27,613 nucleotides of DNA, from IMG/VR virus record IMGVR_UViG_3300024238_000005, positions 1 through 27,613 of that record. The stretch is one strand, 5' to 3'. The notes below the pieces were generated by a model. That model saw only the letters and a list, made by a program, of their open reading frames with translations, made no database searches and had not been told where the DNA came from. A program made the translations under genes and the position numbers. The stretch is from a virus. Shown in pieces: positions 12,045 to 27,613 of the stretch (position 1 is the first letter of the stretch; every line of letters begins with the position of its first letter).

Positions 12045-13205
12045 ATGGATTATTCATTAACCACGCTTTTCGTAGTTCCAGTGGGGCAGACAACTTTCCC
12101 TAGCTCTGGCTCTACACAAAATCTGACTGCTGGTCAGTTAGGGCTTTTTAGTAATACGTATGTAGCTTTAACGGCTGGTACGATTGTTAACTATCCTTAT
12201 TTCTATGTAGCTCAAGGAAGGACTAATACAGTTCTTGAAGGCTCTAAACGTTCTGATAAAATTGCAGGATGTATCAGTGCAACAGGATGTAAATCCAATG
12301 TCACTGAATGGTATAAAGTTACAGGATGTTCTACACATACCCCAGAGGTTGTTGAGATCTCAGGATGGAGTGCTCACTGTGGTGATGATATCACTATTAC
12401 ATTGAGAGCTCACTCTTCTTATATTGATACCTTATGGATGAATGGTCTTACTCGCTCTGTAACAGTTAAAGCACCTTGCTGTACTTGTGGAGGGAATCCT
12501 TGTGACACTGTAGATGTTAATGCTCTTATTAATTTAGCAATTGCTAAGTTACAGGCTGCTCCTACAGGAACTAACCCAGATAATGTAACTCTTAGTACAT
12601 TCTTTGTCTTTGAGAACATTGGAGGCACAGTTCTTAGGATTACAGCAAAACCACTTACTACTTATGGAGTACCGTGTGATGTAGCTGCTTTCCCATTTGA
12701 GTATGATAGATTATGGTTTAGGGCTTTTATATATAGTGGCCCAGCTACTACAGCAGACTTCATTGTATCAGATCCTTGTAATCTGGTTGCCACTGCTGCT
12801 GTTACTCAGAGGGCTACTTATCCTATTGGAACATCTAATGAGATTACACAACTTGAAAAGAACTTATATAGTTATCAGGTAGGTGCTTTGAAACATCTCT
12901 ATAGAATGGTGGGATATAACCAGAAGTTTGAAAGTTTTGTAACTGATGGAACTTACTATGATACCTATTATATTAAGTTTAATGAGTGGGATAAGGCTGA
13001 TAATAATTGGGGAGATAAAGTAAATGAAGACAGTATGGTGATTATTGCTGTTCCAACAGGCAGTGCTGCTGCATCTGCATTAGAAGCAATTCTTGTTGCT
13101 GGATTAGGGGCTGTAACAGCTAAGAACACTTGTGCTACTACCACCACAACTACGTCAACTACGAGTCTTACTACTACGACAACAACCACAATTCTCATCC
13201 CATAA
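12045..13205 (+). CDS. Cys-rich virion protein with a poly-Thr tail
   Basis: A 386-residue protein. Residues 1-150 form a beta-rich region with many Cys (GCISATGCKSNVTEW; CCTCGGNPC near 149-157). Residues 158-360 are mixed, including VDVNALINLAIAKLQ, a tyrosine-rich segment YDTYYIKFNEWDK and an Ala-rich helix (GSAAASALEAILVAGLGAV). The C-terminus is a Thr/Ser/Leu tract (365-382) ending ILIP. GGT and GCT codons are frequent, suggesting high expression. It is followed by a good terminator, so it ends a transcription unit that begins at or before the capsid gene. It could be a capsid decoration, head fibre or tail protein; I do not recognise the family. Thr tails recur in the downstream proteins. 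Confidence 0.5.
   Translation: MDYSLTTLFVVPVGQTTFPSSGSTQNLTAGQLGLFSNTYVALTAGTIVNYPYFYVAQGRTNTVLEGSKRSDKIAGCISATGCKSNVTEWYKVTGCSTHTPEVVEISGWSAHCGDDITITLRAHSSYIDTLWMNGLTRSVTVKAPCCTCGGNPCDTVDVNALINLAIAKLQAAPTGTNPDNVTLSTFFVFENIGGTVLRITAKPLTTYGVPCDVAAFPFEYDRLWFRAFIYSGPATTADFIVSDPCNLVATAAVTQRATYPIGTSNEITQLEKNLYSYQVGALKHLYRMVGYNQKFESFVTDGTYYDTYYIKFNEWDKADNNWGDKVNEDSMVIIAVPTGSAAASALEAILVAGLGAVTAKNTCATTTTTTSTTSLTTTTTTTILIP
13137..13190 (+). repeat. Poly-Thr tract at a protein C-terminus
   Basis: Eighteen ACN-rich codons encode fifteen Thr with two Ser and one Leu, four residues before the stop. Codons are mixed (ACT, ACC, ACA, ACG), so this is not a pure triplet expansion and seems to be kept at protein level. 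Confidence 0.9.
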
Positions 13206-13234
13206 GATAAGAAGTAATAAGTTTACCAAAGAAT

Positions 13235-13276
13235 AAAAGGGAGATAGAAGAGGAAAACTCTCTCTCTCCCTTTTTT
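13235..13276 (+). terminator. Intrinsic terminator
   Basis: AAAAGGGAGA at 13235-13244 pairs with TCTCCCTTTT at 13265-13274, with partial further pairing of the purine-rich loop against CTCTCTC, and a run of six T at 13271-13276. It lies 30 bases after the stop of the Thr-tailed gene and just before the next start, separating the head block from the fibre block. Confidence 0.85.
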
Positions 13277-13293
13277 CTTAAAATATTAAAATC

Positions 13294-13857
13294 ATGCCTA
13301 CACTCAATTTGAATATATTGGTAGTTCCAACTTATGACACATTCACTCTTGGAATTGCTGATGCTTCTACGTATCCAGATTCTCCCCCTGTTGTAACATC
13401 TCCTCTTATAGAGATAACAATTCCCTCTTTTGATACAGTGAGTTTTACTTTTCCTATTCTTGAGACTACATTCTATAATTCTGAGACACTACTTATTACT
13501 CCCTCTGGAGATAATTTAGTTTCTCTTCCTGATGGTATATATACATTAAAATATTCTATTGACCCAGCAGATATAAATTACATAGAACGCTCTATAATGA
13601 GAGTAGATAGGTTACAGGAAAAGTTTGATACAGCTTTTATGAAACTTGATATGATGGAGTGTGATAGAGAGATTAAGACACAATCAAAAGTAGACTTGAA
13701 TAGTATATACTTTTTTATTCAAGGCTCTATAGCAGCAGCTAATAATTGTGCAACAGAGGAGGCTAATAAGTTATATCATTATGCAGATAAGATGTTAGAT
13801 AGATTCCTGGGGGACAATTGTGGATGCTCAGGAAATAATTATAAGAAAAACTTTTAA
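13294..13857 (+). CDS. Beta-domain plus helical structural protein
   Basis: A 187-residue protein. Residues 1-92 are beta-rich and end with LPDGIYTLKYSID (78-90), an Ig-like closing strand resembling IPDGIYTLSVVDS in the protein at 24861. Residues 93-172 are helical (ERSIMRVDRLQEKFDTAFMK; EEANKLYHYADKMLDRFLGD), and the end is Cys-rich (NCGCSGNN). The ATG follows the terminator at 13235-13276 by 18 bases; no promoter consensus was seen, so it may rely on read-through or a phage-specific promoter. The two-part design suits a virion adaptor that links an outer beta domain to the particle. The family is not recognised. Confidence 0.55.
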   Translation: MPTLNLNILVVPTYDTFTLGIADASTYPDSPPVVTSPLIEITIPSFDTVSFTFPILETTFYNSETLLITPSGDNLVSLPDGIYTLKYSIDPADINYIERSIMRVDRLQEKFDTAFMKLDMMECDREIKTQSKVDLNSIYFFIQGSIAAANNCATEEANKLYHYADKMLDRFLGDNCGCSGNNYKKNF

Positions 13858-13878
13858 TAACCGATAAACCAATAAGTT

Positions 13879-14010
13879 ATGCCAGTTTGCAAATCATGTG
13901 GAACATCTGTCGGATGTGGATGTCAGCTAGTAAATGGATTATGTGTCAAATGTAATTCAGTTCTTACAGAGAGTCAAAATAAACCAGAGGAAAATAAGAC
14001 AGAAAAATAA
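13879..14010 (+). CDS. Very small zinc-ribbon-like protein
   Basis: A 43-residue protein with Cys4-x2-Cys7, Cys13-x-Cys15 and Cys22-x2-Cys25: two CxxC knuckles about 15 residues apart, as in a zinc ribbon, followed by a polar tail (ESQNKPEENKTEK). The ATG at 13879 comes 21 bases after the previous TAA, and the TAA at 14008-14010 is five bases before the next start, so it fills the space between two genes exactly. It may be a structural zinc module of the fibre complex or an assembly factor. The gene is short, but the Cys spacing and packing support it. Confidence 0.6.
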   Translation: MPVCKSCGTSVGCGCQLVNGLCVKCNSVLTESQNKPEENKTEK

Positions 14011-14015
14011 ATGTC

Positions 14016-15635
14016 ATGTTAAATCCAAGACTTAGAGATTGTAAAGAATATAATACAATTCCTTCCTTAATAAAGGCTATTGATTGTAAGATAAGTAAGA
14101 TAGCTACAGCTCTTTATAATAATACTATATTCTCTTTAAATATTAGTATTGATTCTGATACAATGCTAAGTCTTTTAAATTATAGAAGAATTCTATTGTA
14201 TAAGTATTGTAATAGTGAGTATGCAAAGAGAATTGAATTAGATAAGATCATTAGTAAAGTAAAACTGTTAACAGCAGGATGTAAACCTAAATGTCTTCCA
14301 AAGGATAGTTTTCATAGAGGTACTATTACAACTACTACAGCTATTCCAACATACATGACTTATATAGTAAATGTCTTTTCTTGTAATGGAGAAGATGCTT
14401 GTGGAACAGTAGTAGCTACTAATGTAAGATATACAAACTTAGCTAGTAATCAAATATTAACAAATGGAAATTTCTATAAGTATATAAATGTCTTTGAGAT
14501 TATTTTATGTTTAGGGGTGTTAACTCCAGAAGAAAATACCTTTTATATATGGGAAGGTGGAGAGACTTCTTGTTCTGCATTTAATTTTCATTGTACTACA
14601 ACAACTACTACAACTGCTCCATCTACTACTACTACTACTACTACAACTGCTCCATCTACTACTACTACTACTACTACAACTGCTCCATCTACTACTACTA
14701 CTACTACAACTGCTCCATCTACTACTACTACTACTACTACAACTGCTCCATCTACTACTACTACTACTACAACTGCTCCATCTACTACTACTACTACTAC
14801 AACTGCTCCATCTACTACTACTACTACTACTACAACTGCTCCATCTACTACTACTACTACTACAACTGCTCCATCTACTACTACTACAACTACATCAACC
14901 ACAACTACATCAACTACAAGTACTACAACTACTCAAGGAAGTTCTACATCCTCCACAACCTCTACTACTACTACACTTCCACCAATTGTACAAGAATATG
15001 GATATTTATATAATTGGTATGCTGGAACTGATGCAAAAAATATAGCAAATGTAGGTTGGCATAATCTTACTGTTGCTGATATGGTAAATTTAAGATTATA
15101 TTTAGACCCTACAGGTACAGCATATACTAATGTTGCTGGTGGACATATGAAAAGTAGTGGAACAACTTATTGGAATTCTCCTAATACAGGTGCTGATAAT
15201 AGTTCTAAGTTAGATTTTAGAGGATCAGGAGATAGAGATCAGGTAGGTAATTTTGCTTTAAATAAAGGTTCTTGTTGGATATGGAATACGCAAGATTTAG
15301 GAGGAGAACTTGGTGGAGGAATAGCTACATTGGCTAATAATAGTGCTAATTTTATTACTGAATCTGGATACACTTCTAGTTCTAAACGTGTTGGTGCTTC
15401 TATAAGATTAAAAAAAGATACAACAACCTCACAACCAGATTTTACTATTATTCCTAATGGATATACAGGAAATGATGGACAAGTTTATGATACTGTTGTA
15501 ATTAATGGTTATGAATGGTTACAGGAGAATATAAAAGAAACAAAATATAGAAACGGAGATGCTATTCCAGAAGTATTGAATAATACATCTTGGTCAGCAT
15601 TATCTACAGGAGCTATGTGTTATTATGTAATTTAA
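14016..15635 (+). CDS. Modular adhesin: Thr-rich stalk and a permuted FISUMP domain
   Basis: A 539-residue protein with four parts. (1) Residues 1-100, helical with paired Cys (CKEYNTIPSLIKAIDCKI; GCKPKC), probably the virion anchor. (2) Residues 112-193, a Cys-containing beta module (YIVNVFSCNGEDACGTVVA) that recurs in the protein at 25918. (3) Residues 194-320, a Thr stalk with nine APS interruptions. (4) Residues 328-539, a FISUMP-type domain (Fibrobacter major paralogous, C-type-lectin style). Its usual second half (YGYLYNWYA, TTYWNSPNTGADNSS, GASIRLKKD) comes first, and the usual first half (GQVYDTVVINGYEWLQENI, KYRNGDAIP, GAMCYY) ends the protein. A receptor-binding role is inferred. 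It lacks a signal peptide, as expected for a virion protein. Part boundaries are clear; the function is likely but unproven. Confidence 0.7.
   Translation: MLNPRLRDCKEYNTIPSLIKAIDCKISKIATALYNNTIFSLNISIDSDTMLSLLNYRRILLYKYCNSEYAKRIELDKIISKVKLLTAGCKPKCLPKDSFHRGTITTTTAIPTYMTYIVNVFSCNGEDACGTVVATNVRYTNLASNQILTNGNFYKYINVFEIILCLGVLTPEENTFYIWEGGETSCSAFNFHCTTTTTTTAPSTTTTTTTTAPSTTTTTTTTAPSTTTTTTTAPSTTTTTTTTAPSTTTTTTTAPSTTTTTTTAPSTTTTTTTTAPSTTTTTTTAPSTTTTTTSTTTTSTTSTTTTQGSSTSSTTSTTTTLPPIVQEYGYLYNWYAGTDAKNIANVGWHNLTVADMVNLRLYLDPTGTAYTNVAGGHMKSSGTTYWNSPNTGADNSSKLDFRGSGDRDQVGNFALNKGSCWIWNTQDLGGELGGGIATLANNSANFITESGYTSSSKRVGASIRLKKDTTTSQPDFTIIPNGYTGNDGQVYDTVVINGYEWLQENIKETKYRNGDAIPEVLNNTSWSALSTGAMCYYVI
14595..14975 (+). 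repeat. Thr(7-8)-Ala-Pro-Ser tandem repeat and Thr/Ser stalk
   Basis: From 14595 to 14876 nine units each encode seven or eight Thr followed by Ala-Pro-Ser (Thr runs 7,8,8,7,8,7,7,8,7), so the repeat period is 30 or 33 bases and always in frame. A less regular Thr/Ser/Gln/Gly tract continues to 14975. Within each unit the Thr codons are mostly ACT with ACA next to last, so units are nearly identical at DNA level and likely to change in number by slippage or recombination. Confidence 0.95.
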
Positions 15636-15647
15636 AATACTATTGTC

Positions 15648-16769
15648 ATGAATTGCAATAATTGTGGTAATGGATGTACAGAGATACAATCTGATAAATG
15701 TATAAAATATACAGGAGTAAATATTCCTGCTCTTGGAATAAATAATGGGGATTATTTATGTCAGGTAGAGACACAGATAATTGATTTTCTTCTAACAGCA
15801 TTAGATGGAACTGGAGTGATAATAGACGTAGATCCCCTTTGTGAGATTGTATCTTCTAATCTTACAGTGGAAGAAGAACTAACTATAGTGAATGTTACTA
15901 CAGCTCTAATAAAGACTGCCTGTAGTCTACAGACACAAGTAACAAGTCTCTCAGATAGTATTACATCTATTACAGAGGCTATCTCTACAATAGAAGCAGA
16001 ATATACTATAGACTGTTTAGTAAATGTTACTACCTCTTCTGGAACTCATGCAATACTTCAGGAAGTAATAACTACTCTCTGTGAGTTACAGACTAATCTT
16101 AGTACAAACTATATAGCAGGAGGGGCTCCATTAAATGAGTATATACAGAACTATCTTGATAGTCAGACAACTGCTTCTCTTATGAGAGATAAGATGGTTC
16201 CTTATGTTGCTATGGAATATTTTGGCCCAATGAGTTATTTTGATTCTTCAGGGGCTGGTACTGGAGATTGGGTAAGTATTTACCTCTGTAATGGAAGAAA
16301 TAATACTCCAGATATGAGAGGGAGGATTCCTGTATGTGCTATTCAGGGGATGAATGGATTAACATTAGATCCTGAAGTAGATCCAAATGAATCTTCTGAT
16401 AATCCTAATTACAGTCTTAGTGATAAGGGAGGAAGTAATGCTGTTACATTAAGTATCAATCAGATACCAACACACTCTCATAATAACTTAGGGGATGTTA
16501 CTATAGTTCCTCACACACACTTCACTGTATCAGAAGGATCAAGTGGTGTATTAACATCTTCTACTCCTATAAAGAGGGGAGTAACTCTTGGAGGAAATAC
16601 AAGTTACGACTTACAAGGAGCTTCATCTGTTGCTACAGAGGGATTAACAAGTCCTACAGAACAGAGTATTGTGTCAGTAAATATGACTAATGCTAGTGCG
16701 GGAGGAAGTCTTTCTCATACGAATATCCCGCCTGTTATCTCTTGTTACTACATTATGTATCGTCCTTAA
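15648..16769 (+). CDS. Short tail fibre with tail-collar domain
   Basis: A 373-residue protein. Residues 1-50 contain a small anchor-like segment (CIKYTGVNIPALGI) shared with the next gene. Residues 75-175 are helical and hydroxyl-rich, suitable for a trimeric coiled coil. Residues 187-373 match the phage tail collar domain: LCNGRNNTPDMRGRIPV (213-229), a Gly-Gly segment before VTLSINQIPTHSHN (266-279), a second His pair in PHTHF, and the closing NIPPVISCYYIMYRP. Such domains end the short fibres of many tailed phages, and the HxH pairs can bind metal on the trimer axis. It begins 12 bases after the adhesin stop. Binding to the host surface is the expected role. Confidence 0.8.
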   Translation: MNCNNCGNGCTEIQSDKCIKYTGVNIPALGINNGDYLCQVETQIIDFLLTALDGTGVIIDVDPLCEIVSSNLTVEEELTIVNVTTALIKTACSLQTQVTSLSDSITSITEAISTIEAEYTIDCLVNVTTSSGTHAILQEVITTLCELQTNLSTNYIAGGAPLNEYIQNYLDSQTTASLMRDKMVPYVAMEYFGPMSYFDSSGAGTGDWVSIYLCNGRNNTPDMRGRIPVCAIQGMNGLTLDPEVDPNESSDNPNYSLSDKGGSNAVTLSINQIPTHSHNNLGDVTIVPHTHFTVSEGSSGVLTSSTPIKRGVTLGGNTSYDLQGASSVATEGLTSPTEQSIVSVNMTNASAGGSLSHTNIPPVISCYYIMYRP

Positions 16770-16780
16770 TAGAATATGTT

Positions 16781-17002
16781 ATGACAAAATGTAATACAGA
16801 ATACATATCAATAGGAGGATATGCATATCCTAAGGGATGTGTTCCTTCTAAGAAGATAATTCAAACAGGGGATATTAAATATAATGGAGTCGAACTCCCT
16901 TGCTTACATGTACAACCATGTGACTCTCTTAATACTATATTAAGTCAGTTGAACTCTATACTCTGTACTTTGACTACAACAACAACACAATATCCAGCAT
17001 GA
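16781..17002 (+). CDS. Small protein sharing the fibre anchor segment, Thr-tailed
   Basis: A 73-residue protein. I chose ATG 16781, 12 bases after the fibre stop, over an in-frame ATG at 16742 that lies inside the fibre gene. It has several Cys, then IKYNGVELPCLHVQPCDSL followed by a helix (TILSQLNSIL), which matches the N-terminal segment of the upstream fibre (IKYTGVNIPALGINNGDYL). It ends with five Thr and QYPA. It overlaps the next gene by four bases (ATGA). It looks like an anchor module without its fibre body and may pair with the fibre or be a remnant of a longer protein. Confidence 0.55.
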   Translation: MTKCNTEYISIGGYAYPKGCVPSKKIIQTGDIKYNGVELPCLHVQPCDSLNTILSQLNSILCTLTTTTTQYPA

Positions 17003-17244
17003 CAATTTATTTAAAAATAGATAGTGTGGGAGATTCTATAAGTACATTTAATCTCTATTCAGATGTTGATGGATTCTTAGTTTCATTCTATACTGATATG
17101 CCTAAAGAGGAGTTGATAGCAGGAACTAATTGTGAAGCTCCTATTAATACCTCTATAGTGGAGATTAGAGCAAATGACACTTGTAGTAATTCGATATATG
17201 TTACTCTTACCACTACCACAACAACTACAGAAGCTCCGTCTTAA
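16999..17244 (+). CDS. Single FNLY-type module with a Thr tail
   Basis: An 81-residue protein made of one beta-rich module (residues 1-70; STFNLYSDVDGFLVSFYTDM, then a late TCSNSIYVTL) followed by seven Thr and EAPS. The module is clearly related to the N-terminus of the protein at 25918 (PFNLYTDLDNYATPFATDV; LCTGAIYLSV) and less closely to the start of the protein at 27237. The 4-bp ATGA overlap with the previous gene suggests coupled translation. It may bind another virion protein through its module, leaving the Thr tail free. The gene is followed by a hairpin at 17280-17303, ending the fibre block. Confidence 0.6.
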   Translation: MTIYLKIDSVGDSISTFNLYSDVDGFLVSFYTDMPKEELIAGTNCEAPINTSIVEIRANDTCSNSIYVTLTTTTTTTEAPS

Positions 17245-17279
17245 TATTCTGTTTTATTGGTTTAGCAGAATATAGAAAG

Positions 17280-17303
17280 CTCCTCAGGATTTATTCTGGG
17301 GAG
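17280..17303 (+). terminator. Hairpin ending the fibre block
   Basis: CTCCTCAG at 17280-17287 pairs with CTGGGGAG at 17296-17303 (one G-T pair) around an 8-base loop, 35 bases after the stop of the small FNLY-type gene. No clear U-run follows. Its place just before a promoter-like site supports a role as a transcription boundary. Confidence 0.5.
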
Positions 17304-17359
17304 TACCTATGTAAATAACTAATTTAATTATAATAAGTAATTGGTTTAGTTAAAAATAT

Positions 17360-17390
17360 TTTGAGAGCATTAAAAGAAAATCTATCTTTA
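17360..17390 (+). promoter_or_regulatory. Bacteroidetes-type promoter for the neck and tail block
   Basis: TTTG at 17360-17363 is followed after 19 bases by TATCTTTA at 17383-17390, one base away from TAnnTTTG. Transcription would begin near 17397, about 28 bases before the ATG at 17425, the same leader length as predicted for the promoter-like site at 476-507. Confidence 0.45.
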
Positions 17391-17424
17391 CTAAAAGTTT
17401 AGATGTCATATAAATAAGTAAAAC

Positions 17425-18174
17425 ATGCCAACCCTTAGATCACTGGTATCTAGTGTTAGAAGTTCACATAAACTACTTAGCACTGACACACTTGCTACCG
17501 ATAGATTCATTGCTTCTGAGATTAGAAATGCTACATTATTTCTAGTTAAGAGGGAGACAAACCTAAGAAAGCTTTGGGCTACAGATAGTATTTTTACCAC
17601 TATCCCTTGTCTGGAATTAGTAGAAGTTCCAATCTCAGAATGCTGTGGATATACAGACCCTTGTACAATAGCACGTAGCAAATATCCTCTTCCTAGAATA
17701 TCAGAAGGTAATTATCAATATGTTATACAAGGAGTCTATTCTATAAATGCAATGGGAGGTAATGGGAATAGACTTAAGGAGATATCTATTAATAGATATT
17801 TGAATCTGTTGAAACTACCTATTATTAAGAAGGAAGATTACTTCTGGATATCTAATGGATATTTATACATAACTAATCCTAATCTACAAGCAGTAAGACT
17901 TGTTGGTATGTTTGAAGAGGATATACCTAATGAGATGATGTATCCTGAATGTGGATGTGGTCAGAATGTATCTGATGAAGAGTGGTGTAAAAACCCTCTT
18001 GATAAGGAATATTCTCTTCCTGGGTATTTAGAGAAGCAAGTATTAGATTTAACTTCTCAGAAGTTATTGTCTACTTATTTTAGATTAAGAGCTGATGTAT
18101 CTCAAAATGATATTGATGAACAAGCACCAAATGGCCCTATGCAAAACCAACAACAAACTCAACAGAATAGATGA
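17425..18174 (+). CDS. Neck or tail ring protein (tubular, P22 gp4-like candidate)
   Basis: A 249-residue protein starting MPTLRSLVSSVRSSHKLLS. The N-terminal half is helical (DRFIASEIRNATLFLVKRET) with a conserved-looking LELVEVPISECCGYTDP, the centre is beta-rich (FWISNGYLYITNPNLQAVRL), and a C-terminal helix carries YLEKQVLDLTSQKLLSTYFR. The end is Gln-rich and likely disordered. The layout matches crAss-like neck ring proteins below the portal. The last helix is also similar to the connector candidate at 11278-12009. It overlaps the following HU/IHF-like gene by four bases (ATGA). The exact position in the neck cannot be told from sequence. Confidence 0.6.
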   Translation: MPTLRSLVSSVRSSHKLLSTDTLATDRFIASEIRNATLFLVKRETNLRKLWATDSIFTTIPCLELVEVPISECCGYTDPCTIARSKYPLPRISEGNYQYVIQGVYSINAMGGNGNRLKEISINRYLNLLKLPIIKKEDYFWISNGYLYITNPNLQAVRLVGMFEEDIPNEMMYPECGCGQNVSDEEWCKNPLDKEYSLPGYLEKQVLDLTSQKLLSTYFRLRADVSQNDIDEQAPNGPMQNQQQTQQNR

Positions 18175-18662
18175 GACAACATGTAGACTTTAGTTCTGTT
18201 AGTGATATTAACTACAAGGATTTTAAGAAGAAACATCCAACAATTAAACTCTCTTATAAAGAGTGGAGAGCTATTTCTAATTCTTTTGTAGATCACTTTA
18301 GAACACATATTTTAGAGACAGGAGAAAGGGGAAGACTCCCCAATGGATTAGGAGAATTTACAATTAGAAAAAAGAAGAGGGATAAGACAGTTATAATTAA
18401 TGGAAAGGAATATATAAATCTCCCTGTAGATTGGAAAGCCTCAAAAGAGAAGGGTAAAAAGATTTATAATTTTAACTATCATACTGATGGTTTTTTCTTT
18501 GGATGGTTATGGTGTAAAAGAACTACTATCTTTAGAAACTCTAAGGTATGGGTTTTTAGACCAGCTAGAGTAGCATCAAGATCAATAGCCAGATACATAT
18601 TCTCTGATGAGAAATATAAAGATATTTATAAGGAGTGGAGTGCTGTTCCTAAATCAGGATAG
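18171..18662 (+). CDS. HU/IHF-like subunit of the crAss-like neck block
   Basis: A 163-residue basic protein. Residues 30-65 follow the HU/IHF pattern: a helix YKEWRAISNSFVDHFRTHIL and then RLPNGLGEFTIRKKKR, equal to the 'v.l.glG.F.v..r' strand of HU proteins. Residues 66-163 add a basic, aromatic extension (GFFFGWLWCKRTTIFRNSKV) and a C-terminal helix. Genes annotated as IHF subunits by remote similarity are typical of crAss-like structural blocks and sit in this place, next to the ring proteins. The extension suggests it has become a virion part rather than a free nucleoid protein. It shares a 4-bp overlap with the upstream ring protein gene. Confidence 0.6.
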   Translation: MRQHVDFSSVSDINYKDFKKKHPTIKLSYKEWRAISNSFVDHFRTHILETGERGRLPNGLGEFTIRKKKRDKTVIINGKEYINLPVDWKASKEKGKKIYNFNYHTDGFFFGWLWCKRTTIFRNSKVWVFRPARVASRSIARYIFSDEKYKDIYKEWSAVPKSG

Positions 18663-18681
18663 GATATAAATAATTAAGATT

Positions 18682-19650
18682 ATGAGTTATTATTATAAAT
18701 ATGCTTTTGTTAGTCCAGAGCCTATATATGCTGTAGTGAGAGAAGAACTAAAGTCATATATGGATACTGGAGCTGTTGACAGTCTACTTTTTCCAACTTA
18801 CACAGATAAGTGTCTGAGAAAGTTGGGGAGATCTTCCTATGTTATAACAGAGGATCTTTTACATTTAGAGGATTTTGAAGCGAGACTTCCTGATAATTTT
18901 TATGCTGTTAGAGAGGCATGGCTTTGTACAGAGGTAAATGGAAGATCTTTTCAGGTTGCAAGTTCATTCTATTCTCAAACTCTTTCCACTACAATACAGA
19001 TTTCTCCTTTTATTGTAGATGGAGAACCTTGTACAAATCCTAATTGTACTAATCCTAATTGCTCTGGATGTGGAGAAGATGAATGTATGCCAGAAGTAAT
19101 ACAAGCTGTTTATAAGACTAACCATGAGATGCCAAGAACTTTCAAGAAACAATTCCTATTAAAACCAGGAAATATTTCAGCAAAGAAAAGTTGTGATGTA
19201 AGTTATATAGATGCATGGGGATCTGTCCCAAATAATAGGACACTCCCATTCTCTTCAACATACGACTCTTTTGATGTAAGAGGAAATAAGTTTGTTACTA
19301 ATTTTAGGAATGGAACTATTTATCTTTTATTCTATGCTACAGAGTATGATAGAGAAGGAAATCAATTGATCCCAGATAATATAAGAATAAGGGATTATAT
19401 AGAAGCCTACCTAAAATATAAAGTCTTTGAGACTTTAAGTAATCAGACTAATGATGAGACTTTTCAACAGCTTCAACAGAAGATGGCCTATTATAAAACT
19501 ATGTCTGATGAGGCATATATTTTAGCAGATATAGAGATAAAAAAACAGACAGTTTCTCAGAAGCAACATAATATAAAGAGACAGTTAAATAGTTTTAGTA
19601 GATATGAAATCCCTACCTCTTCCTATAGAGGAATTAGGTACAGACGTTAA
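18682..19650 (+). CDS. Conserved neck/tail ring protein
   Basis: A 322-residue protein. It starts SYYYKYAFVSPEPIYAVVRE and has a helical segment, then a beta domain (YAVREAWLCTEVNGRSFQV) interrupted by a Cys-rich hairpin at about 116-134 (CTNPNCTNPNCSGCGEDEC) that could hold zinc. The late segment GTIYLLFYATEYD followed by DYIEAYLKYKVFETL repeats the order seen in the two ring candidates at 11278 and 17425. The C-terminal helix is basic and ends SYRGIRYRR. It lies between the HU/IHF-like gene and the muzzle gene, where crAss-like phages keep their neck proteins. The Cys hairpin looks like an insertion. Confidence 0.6.
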   Translation: MSYYYKYAFVSPEPIYAVVREELKSYMDTGAVDSLLFPTYTDKCLRKLGRSSYVITEDLLHLEDFEARLPDNFYAVREAWLCTEVNGRSFQVASSFYSQTLSTTIQISPFIVDGEPCTNPNCTNPNCSGCGEDECMPEVIQAVYKTNHEMPRTFKKQFLLKPGNISAKKSCDVSYIDAWGSVPNNRTLPFSSTYDSFDVRGNKFVTNFRNGTIYLLFYATEYDREGNQLIPDNIRIRDYIEAYLKYKVFETLSNQTNDETFQQLQQKMAYYKTMSDEAYILADIEIKKQTVSQKQHNIKRQLNSFSRYEIPTSSYRGIRYRR

Positions 19651-19660
19651 TACTTAGCAG

Positions 19661-22600
19661 ATGGCTGAACAGGAACAACCACAAGGTAATATAAGACAAG
19701 AATCTAATACTGCGACAGTAGGACTTAATTTAGATCAGACTCTCTCACAAGTACGTAAGGGACAATTAACTTTTGCCCTAAATGCTGCTGTAGAAAACTA
19801 TGATGCTAATAGTATAAATTATACTAATGAAGAAGGAAATGAATTTTGTTTAAGTTTTCCTGAGGGACTTATTCTTATTGGTAAACATTTTATCGCAGAG
19901 AGGAATAAGCATATATTTATGCTGGCTAGTAAAGATAAATCTGTAAGTCAGATTGGGTATATGGAGAACAATGATTGTATCTATCATACCCTTATAGAAG
20001 CTTCCTGTTTAAATTTTGATATTCATTATCCTATACATAAGATTGTCCATAAAATTACAAATTGCTCTACAGAGATTTATTGGGTCGATGGTCATAATCC
20101 AAGAAGATATTTAGATATTGATAATATTCCTTTTAAGTTAAAATATGGAACGGTATTCTGTGATCCTAATTATACAGATGAAGTAGATTGTAATCAGTTA
20201 ACCTTACAACCAATTTTCTCTATACCACAGATTAATATTATAGATGTGATAGCAGGAGGAAATAATACTGCGGGAACTGTTCAGTTTGCTGTACAATATT
20301 CTGATGCTGTAGGAGATCCTTATACCTCTTACTATTCTATTACCAATCCTACTCCTATTTATGATCCTACTGATGTTACAGTGAATTTTAATACGCATGT
20401 TGGAAAATCTGTGGTAGTAAAGATTAGTAATCTAGATACAACAGGAGAGTTTCATTTCTTCAACTTAGCAGTAGTTAAGACTATTAATGATATTCCTTCT
20501 GTAGAACTTGTAGGAACTTACTCTATAGAGGATGTAAGTAAAACGATAACATATACAGGGCAGGATGTCTCAAGTGTAAGACTTAGTATCAATGATATAT
20601 TTGAGAAGTTTCCTTTTTATGAAATAGCCAATGATGTTACAGTGGTAGATGATGTTCTTGTATGGAGTGATTTAGCTACCTCTGAGAGATTAAACTGTCA
20701 GAAGATTGCTAATCAGATCTCTCTTAAGTGGGAAACATGGAGAATTCCTCCTACAGAGAATTATGCAGATGAGATTAATGCTACGAATTTTAGAGGATAT
20801 CTGAGAGATGAGGTATATTCTTATGAGATTGCATTTCTCTTAAATAATGGAAAACAGACAGATGGTTTTCATATTCCTGGGAGAGGAAAGAGTGCTCTTG
20901 AACAGCATTCTGATATACAAGAGACAGACCCAGATTTTATAGGAACACCAGATTATTATTCAGGAGGGATAGGTTATTCTCCATATTGGAAGATATATAA
21001 TACAGCTTCTGTTACAAACTTCTCTCCAGAGTATATCTCAGATCCTAAGTATAAAGGGCCATATCAATATGGGGAGTTCTCATATTGGGAATCAGAAGAG
21101 ACTTATCCTTGTGATAGTAATGTCTGGGGAGACTTAGCAGGGCAGAAAATTAGACATCATAAATTCCCTGATGTCTTAGTTAGCCCTATTAATGAGTCTA
21201 AAGTCTTTATATCTCCTTCTACAATGGAGATGGGTAATAATGCAATATTCCCTATAGGAGTTAAGATAGATAAGAATCAGATTAAATCTCTTATTAGTAA
21301 TTCTTCTTTAACTAAGACACAGAAAGATAGTATCGTAGGATTTAAAATCCTAAGAGGAGATAGGGGAACAAACAAGTCTATTATTGCAAAGGGTATATTA
21401 AGAAATGTAGGTACATATAAAAGAGAAGATCAGGAGTATTACTTTCCAAATTATCCTTATAACGACTTAACAACAGATCCATTTCTTAATGGGAGTAATA
21501 ACGCTTTTGCACAACTCTGTAATACGTATGATATAAATATTAAGATATTAGGAGCAAATCATACAGCCGAAGTACAATATAAGGATTGCAATACAAATAA
21601 GATAAATAAGAAGGTTTATACAGAAATAGGCTCTTATGAGTTATGCTCTACAGAAAAGCCTACTATCTCTGGAGATGCAATAGGAACAACAGGCATAGCT
21701 ACTTATGAGATATGGAGAGTATCTAGTTGTGCTCTCTGTAGAGGATGGAGAGTGGGATGGGATGATCCTATAGAGGGTTATAGAGAAGATTGGGTAGATG
21801 GTATGGGAGGAAGTATGCACATCAATGTTATAGTAGGAACAGAAGGGCCTAAACAAGTAGGTGGTGATGGTACTTCAACTATAGAATATATAGAACTACA
21901 TACTCCTAGCACATCTTGTAATCAGATACAGAGTCTTCCTAGTATAAAAGAAACTCCTACATTAAGTTATAGACAAGTATTTAATTCTCCTGAGACCTCT
22001 TTTGGTCAACCATTCTTAGGAGATGTATTAAAACTTGAGAGTGTTATATATGGTACTGGAAAGGCTCATTTTACTGAGGTAAAGAAGAATGCTAAGTATA
22101 AACTTATAACAGAAGAAGTACAAAGAGATGCATTGAGAAGTGCAGAAGCTCTTGGATTATTAACTCATCCATTAGATGCTACTGCTATGTTTACAGCATA
22201 TCAGGCTTATCTGACTATATATGTAAATGGTATTACCAGAAAGAATTATGCATATTCTTTCAACTCTATAGCAGACTATAACTATTTAGCTTCTATTCCT
22301 AATGGATTAGGAGTAAAACAACGTTCTCTGGATATAGCAAAATACCTAATACCTGGGGTACAATCAGTAGGGCATAAAGAGTTAAATATTAATAATTATA
22401 GTAGAGAGTCTTCTGTTTTCTTAAGAACAGATATAAATAAGACAGCTCTCCCATTTCCAGATGAAACTCCCTCATTAGTCTCAGGAGGTAGTAGTGTTAT
22501 TAAAGAGAAGTCAAGATTTACTATCTCTGATATAAATAATTGTAGTACTCCTGGAAAGGAAGAACCTATACAAGTAGTAAGTTATTATGCTTCTATAAAG

Positions 22601-24859
22601 AATCAGATAGTAAATCAATGGGGACAGATATATTCTTATGAGACTATTGATACAGGATTTCAGGTAATATTCGATACTAATGAGAATCCTACAACAGTTT
22701 TTGGAGGAGATACATTCATTGGAAGACATACATTTAAGACTAAACTCCCCTTCTTTTTTGATAATAGGGTTAATGCCCCTGATGATAGTGATATATTCTA
22801 TGATGAGATAGGAAATGTTGCCTATCCTAAATACTGGCATTCAGCTAGATCTATTCTAAAAGATTATACAGTAACAGATGCAGGGTTATTAAGTAATATT
22901 ATTGCGTATAAAGCACATAATTTTGATTGCCCCAATACCCCATCTGATTTTGTAACAGTTCCTTATACTCCTCCTACTCCAGGTACTACTACTACCACTA
23001 GTACCACTACTACTACCACCACTATATATAAAAATGGAGATGAAATAAGTAGTAGTACAATAACTTATTATGATGGCTATTTCTATTTATTTGCTTATGG
23101 AGTTCCAAACTTCTATTGTGAGAGTAGTTATAACATGGATTTAAGACAAGCTTTTAATAATAGAGAAGGAGAGTATTGGCCTCATGTTAATACAAATATT
23201 CCTGATGAATGGGTACAAGAAAGCTTTGTTCCTATTGCACAAGATAACACATATTATTATAACGTAACGTTTTCTAAGCAAAACAAAGAAAGTTACTTCT
23301 CTCATCTCCCTATAGAGTGGAATATAAACTGTCATACTTATTACCCCTTTAGAGCTATTGTTTCTGATACACAGAATAGAGATGCAGACGCAAGAGTAAA
23401 TGCATGGCTTACATATAGAGCTGCTTCCTATTTTGATTTTCCACAGAACTATGGGAAGTTAATATCTCTTGATGGAGTACAGAATAGTCAGGTGCTAGCG
23501 AGATTTGAGAATAAGAGTTTACTCTATCATAGTATGCTTACTATTAATACAAGTAATCCTCTCTCTGCCTATATGGGAAATCCTAACTTATTTAGGGGCA
23601 CACCTCCATTAGATTTCGCAGACACAGATCTTGGATATGTAGGTAGTCAGCATAAATTTCTATTAAAGATTCCTCAGGGACAAATTACTATTGATGCTAA
23701 GAGAGGACAGATATTCTTATTAGATACGGATGCTTATGGTAGACCACAAGCGCATGATCTCTCAGGTTTTGGCTCTGGGTTAAATAGATTCTTTACAGAT
23801 CATCTTGCTTTTGAAATATTAAGATATTTCCCAGAAGTAGATATAGATAATGCTTTCACCTCTGTAGGACTACATGGAGTGTATGATAGCAAATATGATA
23901 GGGTAATAATTACTAAGCTGGATTATATTCCTATTGATTCAGGGATAAAGTATGATTCTTCTCTTAAAGAGTTTTATATAGATAAAAATATAGGAGGGGC
24001 TTTAATAAGGACAAAGGTGGAGTTATCTGATCGAGATTACTTCTGTAATAAGAGTTGGACTCTTTCATATAATATAACTACAAAATCTTGGATATCTTTT
24101 CATAGTTATTTACCAAATTGGTATATTGCAGAGAATAATTTCTTCTATTCTGGATTGAATGAATGCTGTGATGACTTTGATTTTATAGTAGATGTCTTAG
24201 GAGAGAATCCTCCAGATTGTAACCTACAAGGTCATCTTACAGTGATACCAAAGATACCATGTCTTATAGATGTAGAAATTCCAGAGTGTACAACAGCTCC
24301 AGAAGTAGGAGATGATTTTCAAGGAGGAAAGGTAGCTTATATATTACAAGAGAGTGATCCTGGCTTTATAGAGGGAGTCGTAAAGGGGTTTATTGTGACC
24401 CCTTCTGATTTAGGAACATTTGTAAAATGGAGTAAACATGCATCATATCCTCTTCCAAGTGTTTCAACATCTATCTCTATAGGAGAAGGAGGAAATAATA
24501 CTCAAGCTATTCTCTTAGTAGAAGGGAACAGTGGGAGTTATGCTGCTAAATTATGTGCAGACTATGTTATAGACGAATATAATGATTGGGTATTACCTTC
24601 TAAGGATGAGTTAAATAAGATACATCAGAATAGAGCAGTATTAGGATTAGATTCAGAGACTATTACAAGTTATTGGAGTAGTAGTCAAGGAGATAATAGT
24701 AATGATGCTTGGATGCAAATATTTAATTATCCGGGACATGAAGGCCAGCAACAACAAGATGCTAAACTATTCGGGTACTTTATTAGAGCAATAAGATATT
24801 TTACTATTCCTAATCCCTGCACTACTACTACAACATCTACAACAATTATTCTTGAATAA
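19661..24859 (+). CDS. Tail stabilisation (muzzle) protein with Thr insert and DUF1566-like C-terminal domain
   Basis: At 1732 residues this is the largest gene. The N-terminus (GLNLDQTLSQVRKGQLTFAL, YDANSINYTNEEGNEFCLSF) resembles the crAss-like tail stabilisation protein (P22 gp10-like; the 'muzzle' of phicrAss001). The body is beta-rich with many Tyr and Asn. At 1109-1121 a tract of twelve Thr and one Ser interrupts the body, and the typical sequence resumes at YYDGYFYLFAYGVPNFYCES. Residues 1545-1716 are an added DUF1566-like domain: GDDFQGGKVAYIL, DWVLPSKDELNKIHQN, SYWSSSQ, then FIRAIRYF. A second Thr tract (1721-1728) ends the protein. The body should close the tail tip, and the added domain probably binds a surface ligand. 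Start: ATG ten bases after the ring gene stop. Confidence 0.8.
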   Translation: MAEQEQPQGNIRQESNTATVGLNLDQTLSQVRKGQLTFALNAAVENYDANSINYTNEEGNEFCLSFPEGLILIGKHFIAERNKHIFMLASKDKSVSQIGYMENNDCIYHTLIEASCLNFDIHYPIHKIVHKITNCSTEIYWVDGHNPRRYLDIDNIPFKLKYGTVFCDPNYTDEVDCNQLTLQPIFSIPQINIIDVIAGGNNTAGTVQFAVQYSDAVGDPYTSYYSITNPTPIYDPTDVTVNFNTHVGKSVVVKISNLDTTGEFHFFNLAVVKTINDIPSVELVGTYSIEDVSKTITYTGQDVSSVRLSINDIFEKFPFYEIANDVTVVDDVLVWSDLATSERLNCQKIANQISLKWETWRIPPTENYADEINATNFRGYLRDEVYSYEIAFLLNNGKQTDGFHIPGRGKSALEQHSDIQETDPDFIGTPDYYSGGIGYSPYWKIYNTASVTNFSPEYISDPKYKGPYQYGEFSYWESEETYPCDSNVWGDLAGQKIRHHKFPDVLVSPINESKVFISPSTMEMGNNAIFPIGVKIDKNQIKSLISNSSLTKTQKDSIVGFKILRGDRGTNKSIIAKGILRNVGTYKREDQEYYFPNYPYNDLTTDPFLNGSNNAFAQLCNTYDINIKILGANHTAEVQYKDCNTNKINKKVYTEIGSYELCSTEKPTISGDAIGTTGIATYEIWRVSSCALCRGWRVGWDDPIEGYREDWVDGMGGSMHINVIVGTEGPKQVGGDGTSTIEYIELHTPSTSCNQIQSLPSIKETPTLSYRQVFNSPETSFGQPFLGDVLKLESVIYGTGKAHFTEVKKNAKYKLITEEVQRDALRSAEALGLLTHPLDATAMFTAYQAYLTIYVNGITRKNYAYSFNSIADYNYLASIPNGLGVKQRSLDIAKYLIPGVQSVGHKELNINNYSRESSVFLRTDINKTALPFPDETPSLVSGGSSVIKEKSRFTISDINNCSTPGKEEPIQVVSYYASIKNQIVNQWGQIYSYETIDTGFQVIFDTNENPTTVFGGDTFIGRHTFKTKLPFFFDNRVNAPDDSDIFYDEIGNVAYPKYWHSARSILKDYTVTDAGLLSNIIAYKAHNFDCPNTPSDFVTVPYTPPTPGTTTTTSTTTTTTTIYKNGDEISSSTITYYDGYFYLFAYGVPNFYCESSYNMDLRQAFNNREGEYWPHVNTNIPDEWVQESFVPIAQDNTYYYNVTFSKQNKESYFSHLPIEWNINCHTYYPFRAIVSDTQNRDADARVNAWLTYRAASYFDFPQNYGKLISLDGVQNSQVLARFENKSLLYHSMLTINTSNPLSAYMGNPNLFRGTPPLDFADTDLGYVGSQHKFLLKIPQGQITIDAKRGQIFLLDTDAYGRPQAHDLSGFGSGLNRFFTDHLAFEILRYFPEVDIDNAFTSVGLHGVYDSKYDRVIITKLDYIPIDSGIKYDSSLKEFYIDKNIGGALIRTKVELSDRDYFCNKSWTLSYNITTKSWISFHSYLPNWYIAENNFFYSGLNECCDDFDFIVDVLGENPPDCNLQGHLTVIPKIPCLIDVEIPECTTAPEVGDDFQGGKVAYILQESDPGFIEGVVKGFIVTPSDLGTFVKWSKHASYPLPSVSTSISIGEGGNNTQAILLVEGNSGSYAAKLCADYVIDEYNDWVLPSKDELNKIHQNRAVLGLDSETITSYWSSSQGDNSNDAWMQIFNYPGHEGQQQQDAKLFGYFIRAIRYFTIPNPCTTTTTSTTIILE
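22985..23023 (+). repeat. Poly-Thr tract inside the muzzle protein
   Basis: Thirteen codons (twelve Thr, one Ser) follow a Pro-rich stretch (PYTPPTPG). It is the only Thr tract here that sits inside a large protein body rather than between small modules or at an end. Confidence 0.9.
24821..24844 (+). repeat. Poly-Thr tract at the muzzle C-terminus
   Basis: Eight codons (seven Thr, one Ser) just after the DUF1566-like domain and a Cys, four residues before the stop. Confidence 0.9.
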
Positions 24860-24860
24860 A

Positions 24861-25901
24861 ATGGCAGTACTTGTATATAGTATATTATCTGGAGATCCTA
24901 ATTTTACAGCAAGCATTGATCCTACTGTAACTTCTCCTAATATCCATACAGAGATAGGAACATATTTCTTTGCAGGAATTCCGGATGGAATATATACTCT
25001 CTCTGTAGTAGATAGTAATGGTTGTAAGAATGTTCAGAAAGTAGAGACAGTAGGTTACACTACAACGACTACATCTACTACGTCTTCTACCACATCTACT
25101 ACAACAACAACAGAATATGTACTACCTCCTTGTAAGAGACCTACAAATCTAAGTACTTTTAATCTTATTAGAGGATATACTACTCCTTCTACAGGGGTAT
25201 CTATTGACTCTACTTTAAGTGCAGACTATGTTTGTGCAGCTATTACTTATATGAATTCTTTTATAGATGGGTACATAGATGTTATATGGAATATTTTTAG
25301 AATAGAAGCTACAGGATTAGATTTATTTGCTCAATGCTATTTAGTAAATGGAACAAATGATTGTAGTTGTCCTACAGATGGATGGTATTTTACTGAGAGC
25401 AGTGCATATAGTCATATTACATATCATATAGTTAATTGTCATATAGTAGAGATATTATCATGTGATTGTCTTATTGATGGTGGGTATGCAATACAAGTAG
25501 ATTGTGGATTAGAAGGTTATATAATTAATCCTATTATAGGAACTACTACTACTTCTACGACCACTATCACTACAACTACAATAAATCCTGAGTCTGTAAA
25601 TTATAGTTTCTCTATTAGCCCCCATGTTCCTAGTATGACTATCACATCTATTAAGATAAATGGAAGTGAAATCCTAACAACTCCAGTAACAAGTGTAGCT
25701 CCTCAATATGGAACTATGCTTCCTGTCTCTGATGCTACGATAGTATTTACTTGGGGAGGAACACCAACACCAGAGCCAGATCTTTATTTCTGGGCAGATG
25801 GAGTTGTACATCATCATGCAGTATATCCAGGAGATTATCAGACGTATACACATATAGATATTTCTCATTCATTTATAGTAGCAATGGCAAAGTATAATTA
25901 A
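24861..25901 (+). CDS. Three-domain Thr-linked modular protein
   Basis: A 346-residue protein; ATG 24861 follows the muzzle TAA by one base, and the frame reaches further only to a TTG inside that gene. Residues 1-66 are an Ig-like module ending IPDGIYTLSVVDSNGCKNVQ, close to the 'G.Y.v.V.D..GC' ending of SprB-type repeats in Bacteroidetes surface proteins. A Thr/Ser tract (67-84) leads to a Cys-rich domain (85-227; NDCSCPTDGWYF, ILSCDCLIDGG), a second tract (228-240), and a last beta-rich domain (241-346) with WADGVVHHHAVYPGDY. There are no enzyme motifs. Position after the muzzle and the modular build suggest a tail-tip or fibre component in host contact. Confidence 0.55.
   Translation: MAVLVYSILSGDPNFTASIDPTVTSPNIHTEIGTYFFAGIPDGIYTLSVVDSNGCKNVQKVETVGYTTTTTSTTSSTTSTTTTTEYVLPPCKRPTNLSTFNLIRGYTTPSTGVSIDSTLSADYVCAAITYMNSFIDGYIDVIWNIFRIEATGLDLFAQCYLVNGTNDCSCPTDGWYFTESSAYSHITYHIVNCHIVEILSCDCLIDGGYAIQVDCGLEGYIINPIIGTTTTSTTTITTTTINPESVNYSFSISPHVPSMTITSIKINGSEILTTPVTSVAPQYGTMLPVSDATIVFTWGGTPTPEPDLYFWADGVVHHHAVYPGDYQTYTHIDISHSFIVAMAKYN
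25059..25112 (+). repeat. Poly-Thr/Ser linker
   Basis: Eighteen Thr/Ser codons join the Ig-like module to the Cys-rich domain of the protein starting at 24861. Confidence 0.9.
25542..25580 (+). repeat. Poly-Thr linker
   Basis: Thirteen codons (eleven Thr, one Ser, one Ile) join the Cys-rich domain to the last domain of the same protein. Confidence 0.9.
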
Positions 25902-25917
25902 TCTAAAATAAAGAATT

Positions 25918-27237
25918 ATGAATATAATTATAACATTAACTCTTGCAGGAACTGATACAGGGCCATTTAATCTGTATACAGATCTTGATAATTATGCAAC
26001 ACCATTTGCTACAGATGTAGAGAAATCTGTCCTATTAATAGGAGGTAGTTATTCTATTCCTGATAGTGTTAGTATAGTAAAGGTATTATCTACTGGTTTA
26101 TGTACAGGAGCTATTTATTTAAGTGTTCCTACTACTACCACAACAACCACTAGTATATCTACAACGTCTACCACTACTACTATCTCTCCAACATCTACAA
26201 CTACCACTACTACAACAACATTATATCATCCACCATCCTTAGAGATAGATGTAAATACTTTTGGTGTAACTCCTTCTGAGTATGGTATTAGTTGTGTTAA
26301 GGTAGGTGGCAATCCTTGTTTTGGAGGTTCTGTAGGTTATGGAGATATAACCTCACAACAATTTATAATTGGATCTACATTTATAGGAACACAATCTCTT
26401 ATTGTATCTGCTGATGGTGCTGGACATATAGGTAGTACTATTTCTGTTATAGATAGTCTTGGTACAGTTTCTACATTAGCTTATTCAGGGGCAGGAGATT
26501 ATACATTCCCAGGAATTGTGATAGATAATATTACAATGATAATAGTAACAATGAATGTTCATTATGTTACAACCACTACAACAACGACAACAATAATTCC
26601 AGTAATTCAGAGATATACAGTGAATATCTATGAGTGCTCAGAGGGATCAGCTTGTGGAAATCTTATAGCTTCTAATCAACATTATTCTAGTTACTATGGG
26701 TCATTAACAGTAGGACATTTCTACTATAATGGATATGTCTATGAAATAGTTTCTTATGACGGATTATATCCATATACTACAATGATGTATGTAACAGGAG
26801 TAGGAACCGCTAATTGTTCTGACTTTGATAGTTATTGTGTATCTCCTCCTACAACTACAACAAGTACTACTCCAGGAACTACTACCACTACATCCAGTAC
26901 AACTACTACGACTACAACACTTCCTCCACTTAATTGTTCAGGACTTAATATTTTAAGTTTAGATGCTACAGGAGGAACAGGAGAAGTAAGTTGTAGTATG
27001 TCTGTTGTTGATCCAAATAACATTCTTCAGGCTGCGTCTTTTGTTCTCTTTACAGAGAGTTTAGGATTTGTGGAAAATGGGGCAGATTATTCTATTTCTG
27101 GACATAGTGCAACAGCAACCTATACTTTCACAGGAGTAGCTCCTGGAAATTATATCTTTAAGGGATCAGTTTTCTCTGGGACTTGGGGTTGTAATTATTC
27201 TTCATTAGATCAGTCAAATACTGTAACTGTAAGCTAA
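25918..27237 (+). CDS. Four-domain Thr-linked modular protein
   Basis: A 439-residue protein with four small beta domains joined by three Thr tracts. Domain 1 (1-71) is an FNLY-type module. Domain 2 (102-217) is Gly-rich (PCFGGSVGYGDITSQQFIIG; YSGAGDYTFPGIVID). Domain 3 (226-311) is the Cys-Gly module also found in the adhesin at 14016 (YTVNIYECSEGSACGNLIAS; HFYYNGYVYEIV). Domain 4 (335-439) is Ig-like (ATYTFTGVAPGNYIFKGSVF). It has no signal peptide. The TAA shares a base with the ATG of the next gene (TAATG). The beads-on-a-string build suggests a flexible fibre or decoration protein whose domains are exchanged with other genes of this block. No enzymatic motif is seen. Confidence 0.6.
   Translation: MNIIITLTLAGTDTGPFNLYTDLDNYATPFATDVEKSVLLIGGSYSIPDSVSIVKVLSTGLCTGAIYLSVPTTTTTTTSISTTSTTTTISPTSTTTTTTTTLYHPPSLEIDVNTFGVTPSEYGISCVKVGGNPCFGGSVGYGDITSQQFIIGSTFIGTQSLIVSADGAGHIGSTISVIDSLGTVSTLAYSGAGDYTFPGIVIDNITMIIVTMNVHYVTTTTTTTTIIPVIQRYTVNIYECSEGSACGNLIASNQHYSSYYGSLTVGHFYYNGYVYEIVSYDGLYPYTTMMYVTGVGTANCSDFDSYCVSPPTTTTSTTPGTTTTTSSTTTTTTTLPPLNCSGLNILSLDATGGTGEVSCSMSVVDPNNILQAASFVLFTESLGFVENGADYSISGHSATATYTFTGVAPGNYIFKGSVFSGTWGCNYSSLDQSNTVTVS
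26131..26220 (+). repeat. Poly-Thr/Ser linker 1 of the four-domain protein
   Basis: Thirty codons, mostly Thr with Ser, Ile and one Pro, between domains 1 and 2; the longest linker in this protein. Confidence 0.9.
26569..26592 (+). repeat. Poly-Thr linker 2 of the four-domain protein
   Basis: Eight uninterrupted Thr codons between domains 2 and 3. Confidence 0.9.
26851..26919 (+). repeat. Poly-Thr/Ser linker 3 of the four-domain protein
   Basis: Twenty-three codons of Thr and Ser with a single Pro-Gly, between domains 3 and 4. Confidence 0.9.
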
Positions 27238-27613
27238 TGTCAAAGATAATATCTATAAAACTAACAAGGGCCAGTAATAAGGCTGGCCCTTTTAACATAG
27301 TAAATGAACATGGAAATGTTATTGCTTCTGATGTTTCTAAGAAAGATCTTATCTCTGGAGTAAGTTACTCTGTAGATGACAGTGTAAATTTTATCTCTGT
27401 AAAGGATAATGGAGGATGTGGAATAGAGAAGATTAAACCTATAGGAACCATTTCTCCTAATGACTACTATTCTACTAAGTTTACTTCTTCACAGAAAGCT
27501 TGTTTATGGAGACATCTTACTGATGTAAAACATTTCAATCATTTCTATGGAGTGACTCATCCTTATATAATTGAATATCCTTTCTACTTTGGAGCACAGG
27601 ATGAAATATTACA
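27237..27613 (+). CDS. Partial protein with an N-terminal FNLY-type module
   Basis: The ATG at 27237 overlaps the previous TAA by one base, and the frame stays open to the window end (125 full codons). Residues 1-62 contain GPFNIVNEHGNVIASDVSKK and LISGVSYSVDDSVNFISV, which align with the first module of the upstream protein (GPFNLYTDLDN; LLIGGSYSIPDSVSIVKV). A different sequence follows (SPNDYYSTKFTSSQKACLWR; FYGVTHPYIIEYPFYFGAQ), without a Thr tract between. It may be a tail or ejected virion protein that uses the module as an attachment domain. A strong hairpin lies over codons 10-19. The 3' part is outside the window, so the function cannot be judged. Confidence 0.6.
   Translation, partial: MSKIISIKLTRASNKAGPFNIVNEHGNVIASDVSKKDLISGVSYSVDDSVNFISVKDNGGCGIEKIKPIGTISPNDYYSTKFTSSQKACLWRHLTDVKHFNHFYGVTHPYIIEYPFYFGAQDEIL
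27266..27293 (+). terminator. Terminator-like hairpin inside a coding start
   Basis: AAGGGCCAG at 27266-27274 pairs perfectly with CTGGCCCTT at 27283-27291 around an 8-base loop, with four T in a row at 27290-27293. It is one of the strongest G/C stems in the window, 29 bases downstream of the start codon, within a reading frame that looks real from its module similarity. It could act as an attenuator. Confidence 0.5.

Follow-up and report, generated by a model that had tools for sequence, protein, structure and literature searches.

Threonine-rich tails and dock-cargo linkers on putative outward-facing virion proteins of an environmental crAss-like phage clade

The head fibres of the crAss-like phage ΦcrAss001 (Kehishuvirus primarius) dock on the particle by their N-termini (PMC10172136), a mode of attachment that presumably recurs in the locus described here. 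The two are alike in gene order, in the fold of the auxiliary protein (gp36) and in the muzzle family PF25731 (gp44), whereas loci of the ΦcrAss001 type have almost no Thr tracts, and neither glycosyltransferase (GT) family 1 nor family 2 is found in 20 related records. Variable arrays of β domains are also known on crAss-like proteins as the tandem BACON repeats of crAssphage; these are repeats of one domain, and Thr joints are absent from the published summary (PMC6949934). In mycobacteriophages, the surface of virion proteins is combined with phage-encoded glycosyltransferases in glycosylated capsid and tail proteins, a modification that in this account is inferred only from the GT genes (PMC11256854). 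Modular tail fibers and adhesins keep a conserved attachment part and vary the distal part or combine it from modules, as in fiber recombination of Litunavirus (PMC9786124) and the Ig-like adhesins of gut phages (PMC13370021). In contrast to these fibers, the present clade uses one kind of joint, a Thr tract, on several docks unrelated to one another, among them the muzzle and a protein at the hub position, and cargo crosses between docks. In contrast to what is known of the mycobacteriophage case, its Thr tracts are long and repeated on many proteins, and their glycosylation is a prediction. Low-complexity Thr stretches joining folded modules are familiar from the Thr/Pro-rich linkers of modular glycosidases and from mucin-like domains. 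Those belong to secreted cellular proteins, with neither exchange on a virion dock nor a capsid tail. A search of the open-access literature (preprints and subscription papers lay outside it) returned no description of poly-Thr tracts in phages.

The window, that is, the whole 27.6-kb stretch analyzed, covers part of the genome of an environmental crAss-like phage. Its terminase, portal and major capsid protein (MCP) match PHROG families, and its genes, which are named below by their start positions (those given with coordinates lie on the plus strand), follow the ΦcrAss001 order TerL-portal-MCP-...-AUX-hub-rings-IHF-muzzle. Gene 19661 matches the muzzle family PF25731 (E 4.7e-33, best stretch residues 13-306), and in the ring/IHF region profile matches pair 17425 with gp40 (50% probability), 18171 with gp42 (95%) and 18682 with gp43 (44%). 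In several relatives (L013, L035, L044, L047 and others), a gene of ∼405 aa that has no homolog in the window lies just before the 17425 (R2-like) gene. At least 598 contigs matched, and in the 80 IMG/VR contigs retained the MCP is 88%-90% identical to that of the window, which indicates that the clade is common in the environment. Cultured relatives are distant, with MCP identities of 25% to Leptolyngbya phage Lbo-JY46 and 21% to the Flavobacterium Fpv phages; no tracts were seen in the structural genes examined of Fpv1 and Lbo-JY46, the nearest cultured phages found. The comparisons below use 123 loci, the window and 122 relatives, all from metagenomic contigs with mechanically called ORFs; they were fetched by similarity to the window and hence are not independent draws. 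One contig of the clade with Thr tracts, L193 (JACIXZ010000023.1), is included in a Tissierellales MAG, probably through a binning error. As the sole match among genome contigs and probably mis-binned, it was not used to assign a host.

The original prediction placed Thr tracts in seven proteins of the window, and exactly these were found to carry them: those starting at 12045, 14016, 16781, 16999, 19661, 24861 and 25918 (with alternative TTG starts, 16781 is listed as 16742 and 24861 as 24852). The remaining predicted genes of the window contain no Thr run longer than two. Runs of five or more Thr would be expected ∼0.01 times in ∼8,400 codons (hand calculation, with Thr at ∼7% outside the tracts) and more than 20 were observed, so that chance can be excluded as their source. 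The predicted length of 5 to 30 residues needs correction: the longest uninterrupted run is eight, and the longer tracts are T/S-rich, interrupted and extend to 113 residues in 14016. Across the clade, tracts occur in 121 of 123 loci and differ in length among relatives. They are carried by 104 of 106 AUX, 74 of 80 g25918-type, 29 of 30 g16742-type and 47 of 76 muzzle proteins, with a lower share among the g14016-type (28/117) and g15648-type (9/121) proteins, and by none of 859 homologs of TerL, portal, SCF, MCP, 10313, 11278, 13294, 17425, 18171 and 18682. With a single detection rule, 366 of 2,230 clade genes have a tract, compared to three weak hits in 949 genes of ΦcrAss001-like controls. 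The expectation that head-assembly, packaging and ring proteins would be free of tracts holds for packaging and ring-type proteins but fails for 12045, a protein of the head shell. Among 569 tracts, 266 lie between modules and 222 are C-terminal tails with nothing beyond. The idea of a common spacer thus fits the linkers with exchanged cargo and does not fit these bare tails, the AUX proteins, which are the most conserved carriers and never have cargo, or a bare loop in the muzzle.

Gene 12045 (12045-13205) encodes the capsid auxiliary protein (AUX), the homolog of gp36 in ΦcrAss001, as judged from fold and gene position. An AlphaFold model of residues 1-364 (pLDDT 77) superposes on chain a of 7qof, the ΦcrAss001 capsid, with Z 16.6 and rmsd 5.7 over 283 aligned residues, nearly the whole length, whereas the next entry from another phage reaches only Z 9.6. 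The length of this chain, 333 residues, fits gp36, the predicted fold has the same two domains, PH-like and FliD-like, and 12045 occupies the position of gp36 in the gene order. Sequence profile searches with 12045, including the PDB, gave nothing useful. Unlike gp36, which ends at residue 333 with no Thr tail, 12045 ends in a Thr tail at 13137-13190 (TTTTTTSTTSLTTTTTTT, then ILIP and the stop). Of 106 homologs, 104 have the tail, as do 80 of 80 proteins of a second, partly overlapping set. Throughout the AUX cluster, the protein terminates with this tail plus a few residues such as LIP, and no member carries a cargo module. Each asymmetric unit of the ΦcrAss001 capsid contains nine auxiliary proteins (PMC10172136); a particle of the present clade would bear ∼540 copies, provided that its capsid has the same T=9 architecture. 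The C terminus of AUX is probably exposed on the surface. The predicted surface exposure of the tract carriers agrees with the components whose homolog is known, the auxiliary protein and the muzzle, both of which lie on the virion surface; for the other carriers it is likely by extension.

The AUX tail also allows the maintenance of Thr to be followed. In pairs of 85%-95% identity, the codons at Thr/Thr columns differ at a frequency of 0.289 in the tail (body, 0.254), and Thr is replaced at 0.029 (body, 0.203). Pairs of 70%-85% identity show codon differences of 0.51 and 0.53 and replacements of 0.23 and 0.47 (tail and body), a bin in which Thr conservation may be overstated because alignment of the tails favors Thr-Thr matches; the close bin should contain few indels. 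Codons in the tail therefore drift no differently from those of the body, while replacements are several-fold rarer, which supports purifying selection at the protein level, as had been proposed. The accompanying claim that the codons are mixed applies to most tracts, where the longest run of identical codons is usually two or three, but not to the long tract of 14016.

Two genes lie at the hub positions. The first, 13294 (13294-13857; PHROG 31752), is a virion structural protein with no tract and a candidate tail-hub protein at the gp38/THA position, although the profile match to gp38 is weak (probability 11.8%). The second, 14016 (14016-15635), has an N-terminal domain that is conserved among relatives and is assigned to the hub by gene position only (gp39/THB; profile probability below 1%), followed by a small β module, a long Thr tract and a C-terminal FISUMP-type domain (PF09603, residues 308-464). 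This tract is a DNA tandem array at 14594-14894, with a 30/33-bp unit encoding (T)7-8APS repeats (TRF, 9.6 copies, 91%-92% matches). Its units are near-identical and ACT-rich, and it is the one clear case of repeat expansion. The tract runs on to 14933, and a second one occupies 14955-14975.

The adjacent genes carry docks of two types. The tail-fiber-like protein 15648 (15648-16769; PHROGs 8763 and 8469) has no tract, and its N terminus is homologous (hhalign probability 95.7%) to the dock of 16781 (16781-17002), a fiber-type dock with a short Thr tail at 16973-16987 (dock cluster c1, 76 loci). Gene 16999 (16999-17244) consists of an Ig/FN3-like dock with a Thr tail at 17209-17229 (cluster c2, 73 loci). 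The muzzle protein 19661 (19661-24859) has a C-terminal module of Lcl_C type (PF07603, E 5e-7, under its curated cut-off), a Thr tail at 24821-24835 and a bare Thr insertion in a loop (22985-23023, residues 1109-1121) at which no module is exchanged. This insertion is found in seven loci, and the other muzzles aligned have a short '...NPxRT' loop in its place. Gene 24861 (24861-25901), for which no PHROG or Pfam match was found, has three modules joined by two tracts (25059-25112 and 25542-25580). In 25918 (25918-27237), an Ig/FN3-like dock (25918-26130, model pLDDT 91) precedes small modules joined by tracts at 26131-26181, 26197-26220, 26569-26592 and 26851-26919; the cargo module at 26593-26850 has a homolog behind a different dock, at 14349-14594 (35% identity over 78 aa, E 6e-12). 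Gene 27237 (27237-27611, cut by the end of the window) has the same Ig-like dock type with no Thr tract, fused to a constant partner, and serves as an internal control. In the window, the segment 24852-27237 places two tract genes between the muzzle gene and 27237, and in most relatives examined the 27237 homolog lies directly 3′ of the muzzle gene. A Foldseek/VIA search with the Ig-like dock gave no significant match (best Z 6.0) and nothing beyond a β-sandwich, and sequence searches of the hub-type and Ig-like docks against the PDB gave nothing useful. PDB hits for the fiber-type dock were mostly designed helical proteins and were disregarded.

Module boundaries in relatives do change at the Thr tracts, as would be expected if modules are exchanged there: docks are constant and cargo differs. 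Segments between tracts fall into three clusters of 84-103 members and two of 22-36, all N-terminal, while those after tracts form 125 small clusters, and close relatives combine a constant N-terminal dock with non-homologous C termini. Five of the cargo clusters are found on two or more types of dock. One module is found at 81%-83% identity behind three unrelated docks (fiber-type, Ig-like and muzzle); its DNA alignment ends at the stop codon in two cases and enters another Thr tract in the third. An Lcl_C module occurs at 61% identity on two docks and FISUMP on three. Pairs of Ig-like docks at 75%-90% identity have cargo in common in 19 of 153 cases. In several pairs, the DNA is 88%-91% identical through the dock into the tract, the cargo is unrelated, and homology resumes at 93%-98% from the stop codon for ∼3 kb, extending into a conserved hairpin/terminator-like sequence; in other pairs, it is regained only close to the following gene, or not in the part examined. 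Just after the g25918-type gene (L063, L086, L057, L014 and others), a conserved double hairpin-like sequence, probably a terminator, ends in CCCCTGGCCTTTCTAGGCTGGGGGTTTTT and marks the right-hand limit of the cassette that is exchanged.

A first boundary statistic, based on HSP ends at masked tracts, was set aside since masking itself breaks alignments, and docks with and without a tract were compared instead. The 27237 family has no tract, and of the 496 pairs formed by its 32 homologs, 99% align over >80% of their length, compared to 2.8% of pairs in the 25918 family, which has the same Ig-like dock with a tract. Likewise, 85% of pairs are full-length homologous in the 15648 fiber family, mostly lacking a tract, and 5.3% in the related-dock 16742 family. 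The comparison is strong but is not a clean experiment, because position and gene context differ between the families. Among 72 cargo representatives, most had no family match; FISUMP, Lcl_C, propeller-like domains and a weak match to CBM56 were the only plausible binders recognized, and these fold families point to possible receptor or polymer binding by the cargo.

Taken together, we consider it probable that the clade carries Thr-rich segments, probably unstructured and extended, on several outward-facing virion proteins. They would take two forms: free tails and loops, most prominently those of the auxiliary protein, and linkers that connect an N-terminal dock, be it of fiber, Ig-like, hub or muzzle type, to an exchangeable C-terminal cargo, which may be a C-type-lectin-like FISUMP or Lcl_C domain, a propeller-like domain or a small β domain. 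The linker would let unrelated cargo sit in frame on any dock, so that recombination between phages replaces the cargo, joining on the left at the tract and on the right at the stop codon. Exchange of binding domains is known in phages, and the joint is usually invisible. Here it is marked by a recognizable sequence across many genes and phages, so that metagenomes directly reveal the cargo repertoires.

The bare tails raise the possibility that the Thr segments serve mainly as acceptors of O-linked sugars for phage glycosyltransferases, forming a mucin-like coat on capsid and tail, with the linker role secondary. We regard this as possible but not favored. The conservation of segments that carry nothing (AUX, the 222 tails, the muzzle loop) and the preservation of Thr while codons drift speak for it. 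In addition, GT2 (PF00535) occurs in 14 of 20 long clade records and GT1 (PF00534) in 6, at least one of them in 15, compared to none for either family in 20 ΦcrAss001-like controls, which makes O-glycosylation plausible. These counts come from long records other than the window, a 27.6-kb fragment, and one of the 14 GT2 matches is under the curated cut-off. The contrast is one between two clades, in effect a single evolutionary event, and is confounded by habitat; five of the 20 clade records, at least one of them 114 kb long, have neither family, and the enzymes may act on host surface polymers or phage DNA instead. In one example, a 726-aa phage protein encoded in L126 (868-3048), GT1 and GT9 domains are combined. 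The canonical O-glycosylation motif of Bacteroidota has Asp before Ser/Thr. Asp was not among the ten commonest residues preceding the tracts, where Pro, Ser, Ile, Val and Cys rank first. The frequency of phage GTs suggests that the Thr segments may be O-glycosylated; that phage enzymes modify the bare tails is less certain than the surface exposure of the tract carriers. A combined form, in which several hundred tails per capsid and stalks on fibers, hub and muzzle are all O-glycosylated and the stalks double as swap joints, is doubtful. Nevertheless, the conserved bare AUX tail and the frequent phage GTs make a glycan-coated capsid a concrete hypothesis for abundant uncultured phages.

It had also been proposed that the ACN-rich DNA serves as short homology for in-frame exchange. 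As a functional element, it would offer a near-universal homology that recruits recombination, since ∼79% of bases agree between any two ACN runs, irrespective of origin (2/3, to which one third of the chance codon identity of 0.38 is added). Where the dock is the same and the cargo unrelated, identity of Thr codons is 0.85 in the dock but only 0.53 and 0.42 at the dock and cargo ends of the tract, the latter close to the chance value, which places the exchange junction at the tract. Both ends give 0.64 when the cargo is homologous, indicating that tracts drift independently as well. Inside the tract, the gradient is weakly supported (0.60 versus 0.41, sign test p 0.011 with the first filter set; median p 0.17 with a stricter one). 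The reverse test, with shared cargo, was contaminated by near-identical genes and was not used. Against a driving role, the right-hand crossover lies at the stop codon, outside any tract, cargo-free tails are kept equally well, and the single-strand annealing proteins RecT and ERF were not found in the 20 records, 15 of which have a weak, unspecific AAA_24 match. The same picture would arise if breakpoints were selected for in a linker that tolerates them. The junction at the tract is compatible with ACN-driven recombination, which we nevertheless think unlikely.

It is very improbable that no exchange occurs, with cargo diverging past recognition and the tracts being passive filler from slippage. 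The array in 14016 and the variable tract length would fit such a view, but the mixed codons and the purifying selection on Thr do not, and divergence alone is ruled out by the same cargo at 81%-83% identity on unrelated docks and by unrelated cargo between flanks of ∼90% and 93%-98% identity. FISUMP and Lcl_C share the C-type-lectin-like fold of the target proteins of diversity-generating retroelements (DGRs), yet variation of the cargo by DGR mutagenesis was rejected as having almost no likelihood, given that whole modules are replaced and that no reverse transcriptase (PF00078) was found in the window or the 20 long clade records, which may be incomplete. Exchange of cargo at Thr joints, as set out above, is the reading we retain. 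Elsewhere in the window, hairpin-like, terminator-like sequences are present in two intergenic stretches, after the MCP gene (10130-10312) and after 16999 (17245-17424).
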